Shown piece by piece: positions 21,481-38,379 of a stretch of DNA of 64,000 nucleotides; positions within the stretch are counted from its first letter, which is position 1; each line of letters begins with the position of its first letter. The DNA is from Parabacteroides chinchillae (GTDB taxonomy: Bacteria; Bacteroidota; Bacteroidia; Bacteroidales; Tannerellaceae). The position numbers and the translations under genes are program-made. Location: positions 248,001-312,000 of the forward strand of contig NZ_FNVS01000001.1 in the NCBI RefSeq assembly GCF_900108035.1, written 5' to 3'. The notes under the pieces were generated by a model. The model did no database searches. It had not been told where the DNA came from and was given only the letters and a program-made list of their open reading frames with translations.

Positions 21481-21488
21481 TATATTTG
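21481..21488 (+). promoter_or_regulatory. -7 promoter box of the AAA15/RloB pair
   Basis: TATATTTG. A possible TTG start at 21486 overlaps the box, so translation must begin at the ATG at 21516. Confidence 0.6.
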
Positions 21489-21515
21489 CCAAGTAATAGC
21501 AAATCCGGAATAAAT

Positions 21516-22835
21516 ATGATCGTAAATTTCAGCATTCAGAATTATGGTTCTATAAAAGACACCATCTGTTTATCTTTCGAAGCAACCAATTCAAAAGATC
21601 TGGAAGAATATTATGTCATACCGGTTGAACTCAGTAACGGAAAATCTATCAGGTTATTAAAGCTAGGATTGATCTACGGTGCAAATGCATCGGGCAAGAC
21701 AACAATACTAAAATCACTCAATTTCTTACGTAGAACTATTTTAAAGCCTCTTGACAAGAAAGATAGTAAATTCAACTTTGAACCGTTTCTTCTTGATAAT
21801 ACCAGTTCTTCGCAGCCAACTTCTTTCGCATTGGAGTTTATACAGAATAAAGTAAAATATCTGTACGAGATTCAATTGACGAAGTATGCTGTCATCAGTG
21901 AAAAATTATATATATATAACCCCAGTAAGTCTTTAGTTTACGAAAGAGCTACCAATCTAGAAAAACAACTGACCAGCATTTCACTGGGAAACAAAATATC
22001 ATTAAAAAAAGAATTTTTAAATTCATTGGAAGCAAATACTTTATGGAATAACACCGTATTGGGAGGCTTCCAAAAAACGAATATAGACTTTAATGAGTTA
22101 CATGAAGTAACCCGTTGGTTCAAAGACAACTTATTACCTATTATAACACCAAAAACAAATTTATTCAGTTATATATCAAGCAGAATTGAAACAAAAGAAA
22201 TAAATAAAAACAACGTTGTTTCTTTACTGAAAAAAGCCGATTTCAATATTTCCGATATTCTTATAGAAGAAACTACGCGAATATTAAACCAAGATGTATT
22301 AAGGCAGTTATTTCTACTTTCGGATATAAAAAATGAAGAAGACACATTGGATGAAACAAAAAAAACATATCCGGTAAAAGAAAAAAGAATACTTCTTCAA
22401 CATCATATCGGCAACGACTCATATAGCTTAAAATATGAGCAAGAATCTGCAGGAACACAACGGTATTATCAGTTTTGCGGTTTACTGGATTTATTAATAC
22501 GAAAGAATAAGATTCTGCCAATAGACGAAGTAGAATCTTCACTTCATCCGGATTTGTTAAAGTATTTTCTATTAACATTCTTAACAAACAGCAAACACTC
22601 ACAGTTAATACTTACTACCCACTTCCGGGAATTCCTTTTAGAAAAAGACATCTTCAGGAATGACATGATCTGGTTCACCGAAAGAAAAGAGGACAGCAGT
22701 ACAGATTTGTATTCATTAGATGACTTCAATACTTCGGTAATCCGGAATACAAGTTCCGTATATAATGCATACAAGATAGGAAAGTTAGGAGCAACACCGA
22801 ATTTGGGTGATTATTACATTGAACTTGAAGAATGA
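21516..22835 (+). CDS. AAA15/OLD-type ATPase, partner of RloB (RloA-like)
   Basis: 439 residues from the ATG at 21516. An ABC/SMC-like ATPase: Walker A YGANASGKTTILKSL (Lys61), a long variable helical insert (about 95-320), signature-like segment LKYEQESAGTQRYY, Walker B LPIDEVESSLHPDLL, and a terminal switch histidine in LILTTHFREFLL. This is the COG1106 group found in phage-defence and abortive-infection pairs. The downstream gene overlaps by ATGA and encodes a Toprim-like RloB protein. Such ATPase/Toprim pairs (Rlo, and by analogy PARIS and OLD/Gabija) restrict phage. Its activity here is inference. The pair sits alone, promoter to terminator, between two housekeeping operons. Confidence 0.88.
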   Translation: MIVNFSIQNYGSIKDTICLSFEATNSKDLEEYYVIPVELSNGKSIRLLKLGLIYGANASGKTTILKSLNFLRRTILKPLDKKDSKFNFEPFLLDNTSSSQPTSFALEFIQNKVKYLYEIQLTKYAVISEKLYIYNPSKSLVYERATNLEKQLTSISLGNKISLKKEFLNSLEANTLWNNTVLGGFQKTNIDFNELHEVTRWFKDNLLPIITPKTNLFSYISSRIETKEINKNNVVSLLKKADFNISDILIEETTRILNQDVLRQLFLLSDIKNEEDTLDETKKTYPVKEKRILLQHHIGNDSYSLKYEQESAGTQRYYQFCGLLDLLIRKNKILPIDEVESSLHPDLLKYFLLTFLTNSKHSQLILTTHFREFLLEKDIFRNDMIWFTERKEDSSTDLYSLDDFNTSVIRNTSSVYNAYKIGKLGATPNLGDYYIELEE

Positions 22836-23461
22836 TGGAAAGAGCCAAGAGAACTAAAAGGGATGGAAAACAGATACACCTGATCGTTGTAGACGGAAAA
22901 ACAGAAAAATGGTATCTCGATTTGTATAAAGAAAAGAATTCATTGAAAAACTTCAAGGTAGATCCTGAATTATGCAAAAAAAGAACCTTAAAAGAACAAT
23001 TTCAAACTATAGAAGAAAACCTCAATAATTATCTGAGTATCATCTGGGTTATTGACTTCGATGTCATTCTGAAAGAAACTTGCGAAACTCCCAAAGGAGA
23101 AAAAACAAAAATATCAGAGTTCAGAGAATATATGGAACTTTTGAAAAAGCATGAAAATGTACATATACTTATTAATGTACCATGCCTTGAATACTGGTAT
23201 CTTTTGCATATAAAAAACACTAGTAAATATTATACCTGTTACAATGACTTAGAAAAAGAATTCAAAAACACCATACTTGATGGTTATGAGAAAACGGAGA
23301 AATTCTATAAGCAGAAGAACAAGGATATTTACACAAAACTTCAACCCTTTTTGGAAAAGGCAATAACCAATGCCAAACAACTGGGTGACATAAATATTTA
23401 CGATATGGAAAAAGGGAAGGCCGAAATATATAAGCTTTTCAGTATTTTAAATAAGAAATAA
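22832..23461 (+). CDS. RloB-family protein with Toprim-like catalytic residues
   Basis: 209 residues. The N-terminal half carries the Toprim pattern: a glutamate in HLIVVDGKTEKWYL (Glu25) and the DxD pair in SIIWVIDFDVIL (Asp75 and Asp77). This suggests Mg-dependent nucleic-acid cleavage. The middle block LINVPCLEYWYLLH (the E-x-W-x-LLH helix) and the C-terminal YNDLEKEFK and TNAKQL segments are family features. Its ATG overlaps the stop of the ATPase gene (ATGA), implying translational coupling and a fixed ratio. A second ATG at 22835 is an equally possible start. RloB was named from restriction-modification-linked rlo genes; none of hsdR, hsdM or hsdS is in this window. Confidence 0.88.
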   Translation: MMERAKRTKRDGKQIHLIVVDGKTEKWYLDLYKEKNSLKNFKVDPELCKKRTLKEQFQTIEENLNNYLSIIWVIDFDVILKETCETPKGEKTKISEFREYMELLKKHENVHILINVPCLEYWYLLHIKNTSKYYTCYNDLEKEFKNTILDGYEKTEKFYKQKNKDIYTKLQPFLEKAITNAKQLGDINIYDMEKGKAEIYKLFSILNKK

Positions 23462-35412: not shown

Positions 35413-36489
35413 ATGAGACGGAAAGAGGCAAATTCGCACAAAAGAAGACGCATGTCAAATAGAAATTTATCAGACAAGTATTTCTATGTCGGCGAACACG
35501 AAACAGTAACCGGCATCCGTCTCACACAATATAATGAAACGACCATACATACGCGTGAAATCAAAACAACGGATACTTTCAACAAATTAGTTGACACTAA
35601 CTATATGAATTGGTTTCAGGTAAGCGGATTAACAGATGCAGAAGCCATCACCCGCATTGTACAAGACTTTGGTTTGCATAATCTGGACGCTAAAGATATC
35701 CTGACCCCTCAACATGTAGTGAAGATAGAAGAATATGAAAGCCGTTTGCTTATCATTCTGAATTCGTGTTACTACGATGCTAACACAGAAATAAGAACCG
35801 AACATATCAGTATCCTGGTAGCCGGAGATACGGTAATAACTTTTACAGAAAGCAGTAATCCAGTATTTGAAGCCACTTATAAAGCTCTCGAGTCCAATAT
35901 GCTTAGTATTCGCAAAAAAGGTAGCGGATTATTATTGGCATTCCTGTTAAATACAATAATTGCAAACATTGTCGAAAGTGTAACGAAAGTGGAAGAAATG
36001 CTGGAAGATATAGAAGAAACTTTGCTGGATATAAAAAACAGCCAGGAAAACATGGGTTCACTTATCCAGCAACGCCGGCATGAATACATGATTATCCGAA
36101 AAAACAGCCAACCATTAAAAGAACAGTTTTCCAAATTACTACGCAGTGAAAATGGAATTATCAGCTCTGATATACTTCCGGTTTACAATGATCTGGCAGA
36201 TCAACTATCATTCATCATACAGTCTTCGGAAAGTTGCAGGGAGATCATTTCATCATTAGTGGATCTTTACATATCCAACAATGATTTACGCATGAATGCA
36301 ATTATGAAACGGCTCACCATTGTATCTACCCTATTCATTCCACTTACATTCCTGGTAGGTGTTTGGGGCATGAATTTCAAATTCATGCCTGAGTTGGATT
36401 GGAGGTACGGTTATATTATAGCATGGTCTATTATGGTAATATGCGGAGTCATCACCTGGCTCTACATGAAGAAAAAAGACTGGTATTAA
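35413..36489 (+). CDS. corA: CorA-family magnesium/cobalt transporter
   Basis: 358 residues. The long N-terminal cytoplasmic funnel has the helix VEEMLEDIEETLLDIKNSQENMGSLIQ. Two C-terminal membrane helices follow, the first ending in the family signature WGMNFKFMPELDW (GMN), the second being YIIAWSIMVICGVITWLY with a basic tail KKKDWY. It forms a pentameric Mg channel in the inner membrane. A second ATG 13 codons later (MSNRNL) is a possible alternative start, since the first residues are very basic. The stop directly abuts that of the converging recombinase-like gene. Confidence 0.94.
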   Translation: MRRKEANSHKRRRMSNRNLSDKYFYVGEHETVTGIRLTQYNETTIHTREIKTTDTFNKLVDTNYMNWFQVSGLTDAEAITRIVQDFGLHNLDAKDILTPQHVVKIEEYESRLLIILNSCYYDANTEIRTEHISILVAGDTVITFTESSNPVFEATYKALESNMLSIRKKGSGLLLAFLLNTIIANIVESVTKVEEMLEDIEETLLDIKNSQENMGSLIQQRRHEYMIIRKNSQPLKEQFSKLLRSENGIISSDILPVYNDLADQLSFIIQSSESCREIISSLVDLYISNNDLRMNAIMKRLTIVSTLFIPLTFLVGVWGMNFKFMPELDWRYGYIIAWSIMVICGVITWLYMKKKDWY

Positions 36490-37089
36490 TTACAATCCGT
36501 AGTTCTTCTTGAATTTATAGAATGTATTCTTAGATACATTATAATACTTACAAATGGAAGTCACCGTTTCGCCACGTTCAAACATGCTGATAATTTCTTC
36601 TTTGCTAGCATCTAAAAAAAGCTGCTTAGACTCAGAACCTTTCGGACGGCCCAGTTTTTTCCCCGCATGTTTCAACTCGATAAGTGAGTCCTTTGTACGC
36701 ATAGATATCAAAGCATGGTCAATAGATTCGGTCAGTTTAAAAGCCTCGACCATCTTTTTACTATCCATGCTCGAATCAAATATATAACGGTCTTCAATAC
36801 ACCAAAGAGAAACTTTTTTCGTCAGACACAAAGACAATATCTCCATCATTTCGAAAACAGAGCGGCTAAGACGCGTAATATCTGATACGATCAATATATC
36901 ACCTTCGTTCACGCGGTCTAATGTATCTTTAAGATTCTGCCCCATTTGTTTTGCTTTCTCTCCTGTTACATCAGTTATCCATTTATCAACTTGCAAATTA
37001 TCTTTTGTAGCAACAAATTTGGTTATTATATCACGCTGAATATCCAAATGATTTCTGTCCGTTCCTACACTTAAATACGCTATCACCAT
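36490..37089 (-). CDS. Mpi-type serine-recombinase relative lacking the catalytic serine
   Basis: 199 residues with the full layout of the Bacteroides master invertase (Mpi) group. A resolvase domain (1-140) is followed by a Lys-Leu-Gly-Arg-Pro-Lys-Gly hinge and a small helix-turn-helix (about 172-199, VTSICKYYNVSKNTFYKF). The family N-terminus is MVIAYLRVST, with Ser9 as nucleophile and Arg7 in the active site. Here it reads MVIAYLSVGT, so both are replaced (Ser7, Gly9; codons AGT and GGA). The rest is intact, including DITRLSRS at 70-77 and SMRTKDSL. The frame is otherwise undamaged over its full length. It is probably DNA-binding but unable to recombine by the normal mechanism. Confidence 0.88.
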   Translation of the reverse strand: MVIAYLSVGTDRNHLDIQRDIITKFVATKDNLQVDKWITDVTGEKAKQMGQNLKDTLDRVNEGDILIVSDITRLSRSVFEMMEILSLCLTKKVSLWCIEDRYIFDSSMDSKKMVEAFKLTESIDHALISMRTKDSLIELKHAGKKLGRPKGSESKQLFLDASKEEIISMFERGETVTSICKYYNVSKNTFYKFKKNYGL

Positions 37090-37212
37090 AAAAATACCTC
37101 TTTAATGAATTAAAGAACAATAATATATTAGATTTTGTTGGTGAAGATACAAAAAGATATGGAGTCATCTGCATTTCTATATTTAAACTTTACAGTCAAA
37201 TCCAATCAAACG

Positions 37213-38315: not shown

Positions 38316-38379
38316 GAACTCATAGTAATGATTTTGAAAAATCATTACTATGAATCAAAAAAATCATAACTATGAGTTC
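38316..38379. promoter_or_regulatory. Three-armed inverted repeat between divergent promoters (candidate operator)
   Basis: Arm A (38316-38335, GAACTCATAGTAATG plus ATTTT) is inverted perfectly over 15 bp by arm B (38338-38352, AAAATCATTACTATG). It is also inverted over 20 bp with one mismatch by arm C (38360-38379, AAAATCATAACTATG plus AGTTC). B and C are direct copies 22 bp apart. The element lies between the minus -7 box (38264-38271) and the plus -7 box (38404-38411) and reaches the -33 region of the latter. Confidence 0.6.

Follow-up and report, generated by a model that had tools for sequence, protein, structure and literature searches.

What is the role of a gene that encodes a relative of the Mpi-type DNA invertases in which the catalytic serine is missing? 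This question is raised by a reading frame on the minus strand (36490..37089) of a 64,000-nucleotide stretch of the Parabacteroides chinchillae genome (contig NZ_FNVS01000001.1, positions 248,001 to 312,000), here called the window. The frame starts with ATG, encodes 199 amino acids followed by the stop codon (36490-36492) and has zero internal stops, confirming that it is open as originally predicted. The protein has the domain layout of serine-recombinase resolvases/invertases, with an N-terminal resolvase domain (PF00239, 65.7 bits; cut-off 23.3) and a C-terminal helix-turn-helix (HTH) domain (HTH_7, 26.4 bits; cut-off 23.8). The predicted monomer has a resolvase-like fold plus HTH (mean pLDDT 79.8, pTM 0.56), and a structure search with it gave Tn3 and gamma-delta resolvases as top PDB matches at about 20% identity. 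The HTH (residues 143-199; 36493..36663, minus strand) was delimited by Pfam, conservation and the structure model, and is the better conserved half of the protein and its orthologues.

The defining catalytic serine is absent, and the set of active-site arginines is incomplete. For the alignment with gamma-delta resolvase, from which all gamma-delta residue numbers were counted, we take R8, S10, R45, R68 and R71 to be the catalytic and active-site residues. The N-terminus reads MVIAYLSVGTD, and codons 7-9 (Ser-Val-Gly; 37063..37071, minus strand) place Ser7 opposite R8 and Gly9 opposite the nucleophile S10. Translation and alignment thus confirmed the predicted exchanges of Ser9 to Gly and Arg7 to Ser. 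The accompanying claim that all other motifs are intact has to be corrected because the counterpart of R45 is gone as well: codons 42-54 (TGEKAKQMGQNLK; 36928..36966, minus strand) form a degenerate counterpart of the SG...RxLG motif (gamma-delta S39/R45) of serine-bearing relatives and read TG...QNLK. R45 lies opposite Gln48 in the gamma-delta alignment and opposite Gln51 in the wider alignment of all collected rows. The window protein has therefore exchanged R8 for Ser and R45 for Gln, and has retained R68 and R71.

The loss is not private to one strain. An orthologue was found in 14 of 38 Parabacteroides genomes, one in each (E <1e-50; next best match 3.5e-42), and this group is referred to as clade A. 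A profile built from the 14 proteins gave 314-349 bits for its own members; the best other protein in 123 genomes of the family reached 222 bits, and no further match above 228 bits was obtained in 393 genomes drawn from the order. With the window protein alone as query, the genome-contig scan gave one relative, from P. bouchesdurhonensis (77%). The clade A protein of genome G003 is identical to that of a P. distasonis record, and the P. distasonis orthologue WP_005856646.1 is annotated as 'recombinase family protein'. All 14 proteins lack the catalytic serine, which is replaced by Gly (6), Ala (4) or Thr (4), and erosion of the active site extends across the clade: R8 is kept in 8/14, R45 in 4/14 (judged by eye), R71 in 10/14 and R68 in 14/14. 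Among 54 other collected rows, which are the best matches to the profiles of clade A and of the second group described below rather than a sample of all recombinases, none is serine-less; one of these rows is a distant resolvase, and the N-terminally truncated protein L042 was excluded. Since 14/14 orthologues lack the serine compared with 0/54 other rows, its loss exceeds what chance or a sequencing slip would give. The expectation of a conserved SVGT clade under purifying selection (see below) was borne out as far as a serine-less clade in 14 of 38 genomes is concerned; the SVGT spelling itself is confined to the window genome, and the relatives read NVGT, NVAT, RVGT, RVTT, RVTI or RVTM.

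Could the nucleophile have been displaced or replaced, leaving an active recombinase? Every clade A member has Thr at residue 9 or 10, and for the Thr9 subgroup (4 genomes) a strict lack of a nucleophile may not be called from the sequence. Against such an enzyme, no Ser, Thr or Tyr occupies one position throughout the clade, the Thr is an ordinary Thr10 in 11/14, and 6, 10 and 4 of the 14 members lack the counterparts of R8, R45 and R71, respectively. A shifted nucleophile in particular is unlikely, given that the clade has no conserved Ser anywhere in residues 7-12. We regard an active clade A recombinase as highly improbable; the loss of the nucleophile predicts that these proteins would not invert DNA.

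Phylogenetically, clade A is monophyletic (100/100 support) amid serine-bearing Mpi proteins (support of the enclosing forks, 83/85 and 90/88); L042 (truncated) and L117 and L119 (disrupted copies of the second group) were excluded from the tree and from the conservation counts. Judged by sequence, clade A derives from the Mpi group and fails the catalytic feature that defines it. With the model NF009949 (cut-off 272 bits), the window protein scored 163.8 bits and the five clade A proteins tested 157-201, all below the cut-off, compared with 323 for serine-bearing Mpi paralogues from clade A genomes (set C). This cut-off alone cannot divide dead from active proteins because two serine-bearing Mpi-type proteins also miss it (249 and 253 bits). 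Clade A resembles Mpi of Bacteroides fragilis, a member of the NF009949 group, in length and in the combination of resolvase domain and C-terminal HTH, and stands among proteins of the YLRVSTGKQ kind; it differs from B. fragilis Mpi by the missing catalytic Ser, the loss of more active-site residues and the better conservation of the HTH half. With the Tn3 and gamma-delta resolvases it shares the fold. Unlike clade A, these resolvases retain Ser10 and recombine DNA, and the chromosomal stretches read around the clade A genes contain no transposon. The window genome also carries a serine-bearing Mpi protein of the YVRVSTD type (L004; G000:C16:41324-41911), which scores above the NF009949 cut-off. 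This protein falls in a different clade, represented in several genera of the family, and no obvious invertible repeat pair lies next to its gene.

The locus of clade A is constant on one side. In the window, the gene is convergent with corA (35413..36489, plus strand; delimited by ORFs and record annotation), the stop codons of the two genes abutting each other, and mutS2 follows beyond; the same arrangement was found in 13/13 other genomes. A P. distasonis record shows it too, and its annotation supplied the names corA, mutS2 and DUF4136. Where the retrieved stretch extends far enough, a DUF4136/PDZ gene follows beyond mutS2, as do dnaJ and grpE homologues, named from their sequences; at two loci, an antisense ORF was called where grpE is expected. 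The far flank differs among subgroups. Genome G061, which belongs to a different genus of the family, has a clade A relative (L072; G061:C139, 3460-4000, minus strand) whose frame is disrupted and whose HTH is similar. Judged by eye, this copy lies directly behind a mutS2-like gene, and the locus may therefore predate the genus. Several related lineages seem to have lost clade A, which is therefore not essential. An origin from a mobile element was considered and rejected: among the 10 of 2379 plasmid matches listed, one P. distasonis record reached 59% and carries the corA/mutS2 context, with the others at 36% or less; the best of the 10 listed phage matches (of 16) had 38%; and the scan of viral contigs gave two partial matches (23%).

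Upstream of the gene, comparison of the orthologues revealed a promoter -7-like element, TATCTTCAC (37141..37149, minus strand), with the form TA[CT]CTT[CT]AC in 14/14 orthologues, beginning 31-64 bases from the gene. The Bacteroides -7 consensus is given as TAnnTTTG (PMC4747536), which the element resembles with an incomplete match. The same comparison showed a perfect 8+2+8 palindrome, TCTTTAATTCATTAAAGA (37099..37116), just upstream of the start codon in the window. This 18-bp palindrome is a possible operator; it stands alone, and no palindrome is common to the upstream regions of the 14 orthologues. Among the inverted repeats in the window between 28000 and 48000 (the 25 longest of 60 pairs), none made a convincing case for an invertible promoter; the strong pairs were short-spaced, and the same was observed around serine-bearing Mpi genes in two genomes. 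Elsewhere in the window, three copies of AAAATCATNACTATGA, one of them inverted, lie at 38316-38379 between two divergent genes that we take to be nitroreductase-like and glycerate-kinase-like. No further copy within two mismatches was found in the window, the pattern being derived from its own three copies, and an equal number of copies turned up in 3 of 100 shuffles; the cluster is a candidate for an operator or a group of hairpins. At 21486-23461, an AAA ATPase (Pfam AAA_21; PADLOC AbiLi, 240 bits) adjoins an RloB-like protein (81.5 bits; PADLOC AbiLii, 63 bits), which makes the two genes a candidate AbiL/RloAB-type defence pair.

Catalytic residues are also lost when a gene simply decays, and the copy in G061 is indeed frame-disrupted. 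Plain decay of an invertase into a pseudogene is nevertheless hardly credible for clade A, as neither relaxed selection nor broken frames were found: the frame is open in 14/14 genomes, and NG86 omega values were 0.015-0.18 in 12 pairs with dS <1.1. The dN/dS values were drawn from the 22 pairs of lowest dS per clade, and the 12 counted clade A pairs exclude the window copy. For the latter, comparison with its nearest relative in P. bouchesdurhonensis gave a pN of 0.126 and a pS of 0.724 with dS near saturation, which also speaks for constraint. The promoter-like element kept in 14/14 orthologues and the better conserved HTH half likewise stand against decay. In 10 of the 12 close pairs, dN of the HTH was lower than dN of the catalytic domain, and the HTH half was more conserved than the N-domain in 88/91 pairs within clade A, compared with 0/55 pairs of set C and 1/78 pairs of a serine-bearing Mpi-type set (set M), the pairs within each of these sets being non-independent. 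Mean conservation of the N and C halves was 0.53 and 0.67 in clade A versus 0.89 and 0.65 in set C, so that conservation in clade A is reversed toward the HTH half to a large extent. The dimerisation helix has drifted: conservation was 0.51 within clade A compared with 0.82 within the serine-bearing Mpi-type set, and the values between sets were 0.41 (A-C) and 0.43 (A-M). This argues against the old architecture having been retained in full.

The reading that we consider likely is that clade A, a branch of the Mpi group that has lost catalysis, has been inherited vertically and kept as a sequence-specific DNA-binding regulator. Tn3 and gamma-delta resolvases also repress transcription by binding to their res sites, which provides an earlier example of a recombinase with a repressor role, and nucleophile mutants of resolvase-type enzymes still bind DNA. 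A protein that has lost the nucleophile and kept the fold and the HTH could still form dimers and hold a palindromic site; on these grounds, clade A is taken as a trans-acting regulator. We infer a loss of catalysis combined with dimer formation, DNA binding and regulation: the proteins would most likely dimerise via the remnant recombinase domain, the conserved HTH would bind to palindromic sites, and the dimer would serve as a trans-acting transcriptional regulator or architectural factor that leaves the DNA uncut. In the open-access literature, no report of a serine-less Mpi protein or of a dead serine invertase as regulator was found, and absence there is not proof.

The original prediction had also proposed that the protein might compete with active invertases. 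Such a decoy or dominant-negative protein would occupy the sites of active Mpi-type invertases or form mixed tetramers with them and thereby set inversion rates. It would fit with the descent of clade A from Mpi-type invertases and with the presence of an RVST-bearing paralogue in 11/14 clade A genomes, which make up set C; two more genomes (G001 and G013) have a further match whose sequence was not read, and G021 has no match. Common recombination sites are unlikely because the HTH of clade A is 35% identical to that of the serine-bearing Mpi protein in the window genome and on average 29% to that of set C; identity to set M was 38%. The drift of the dimerisation helix also speaks against the decoy, and of the 8 genomes that lack clade A and its serine-less counterpart inside the clade A-bearing part of the genus tree, 7 still have an Mpi relative. 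The sequence ARACGTWCGT, which we take to be the consensus of the B. fragilis Mpi-type repeats, was not enriched in the window genome (31 matches compared with 60 for the reversed-pattern control; weak evidence, as this consensus is an assumed one), and the closest two matches were 5.6 kb apart. Competition is thus unsupported, and we regard the decoy as rather unlikely. What stands of the earlier proposal is selection as a DNA-binding regulator instead of decay, which agrees with the purifying selection, the single locus and the better conserved HTH.

A second serine-less group, clade B, occurs in the same genomes. Its member in the window genome (L074; G000:C5:245-844, minus strand) was found by profile search on another contig than clade A, and its relatives are L076, L077, L079-L085, L089, L091 and L118; identical sequences were merged, so that the conservation set contains L118 without L077 and the alignment L077 without L118. 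Clade B forms a 100/100 clade of its own that is sister (98/93) to a serine-bearing protein of another genus. As it stands apart from clade A in the tree, the catalytic serine has been lost at least twice. Clade B is likewise a serine-less Mpi relative under purifying selection (omega 0-0.21 in the 11 lowest-dS pairs), present in the same 14 genomes of the genus; two of its proteins scored 186-189 bits with NF009949, and the structure model of a clade B protein had a pLDDT of 73.6. In contrast to clade A, it has an invariant Tyr, retains Arg7, has a shortened SG loop, and shows about equal conservation of its catalytic and HTH halves (0.63 versus 0.60). Tyr9 at the site of the catalytic Ser is found in all 12 aligned proteins and is likewise present in G035, G021 and G061, whose copies are divergent or damaged. 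This could point to a replaced nucleophile; against this, R71 is lost in 2/12 and the loop of the SG motif is shortened in 12/12, with SG retained only in the copy of the window genome, so that we give an active enzyme as little credit here as in clade A.

The joint distribution of the two clades raises the further question of whether they work together. A clade B match (E up to 1e-50) was present in 14/14 clade A-bearing genomes and in 0/24 other genomes of the genus. This count is confounded by descent, and therefore contrasts on a tree were used instead. The tree was based on PyrG and YidC of 30 of the 38 genomes, with clade B labelled by a match at E up to 1e-50 and the presence of Mpi relatives and corA taken from genome searches. 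The clade A label changes 6 times on this tree, with at least 4 changes forced by well supported branches. Clade B changed together with clade A in 4/4 supported independent contrasts, compared with 0.6/4 for other Mpi relatives and 1.6/4 for corA; four contrasts are too few for significance (sign test, p 0.125). The branch delimiting the clade A-bearing part of the tree is weak (65/96), and a corA-only tree and a 36-genome tree also place clade A-lacking genomes interspersed among the bearing ones. In G020, corA is followed directly, as seen by eye, by the gene that stands beyond clade A in G013, a junction that looks like a deletion.

This shared presence and absence suggests a partnership of A and B, in agreement with the state of G061, where both copies are disrupted, that of clade B (L117) by a premature stop. 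The two proteins might be halves of one regulatory device, as a heteromer or through a shared target, an idea that is compatible with the regulator reading and that we hold as a tentative possibility. Several observations speak against it. Apart from the small number of contrasts, the genes are not adjacent, lying more than 300 kb apart in the 7 genomes where both are on one contig and on separate contigs in the other 7, and the fragmented genome G021 has an intact clade A gene and a frameshifted clade B gene. Furthermore, of the 8 genomes that fall within the A-bearing portion of the tree and lack both A and B, three (G010, G017 and G020) have a completeness of 90% or more and five fall below 90%; joint loss through genome reduction is a fair alternative. 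A more specific version, which we consider somewhat more doubtful still, is that two independently retired invertases form a paired, perhaps heteromeric device that does not cut DNA, controls surface or phase-variation genes, and is acquired and lost as a whole, the cutting invertase being separate.

A serine-less recombinase that is kept under selection and whose nucleophile was lost at least twice would show enzymes of phase variation becoming fixed regulators. Serine-less proteins annotated as recombinases could be miscounted as invertases in phase-variation surveys of gut commensals. Because the serine was lost independently in two lineages that share their presence and absence among genomes, the question is directly open to experiment in P. 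distasonis, where relatives of both clades are on record.
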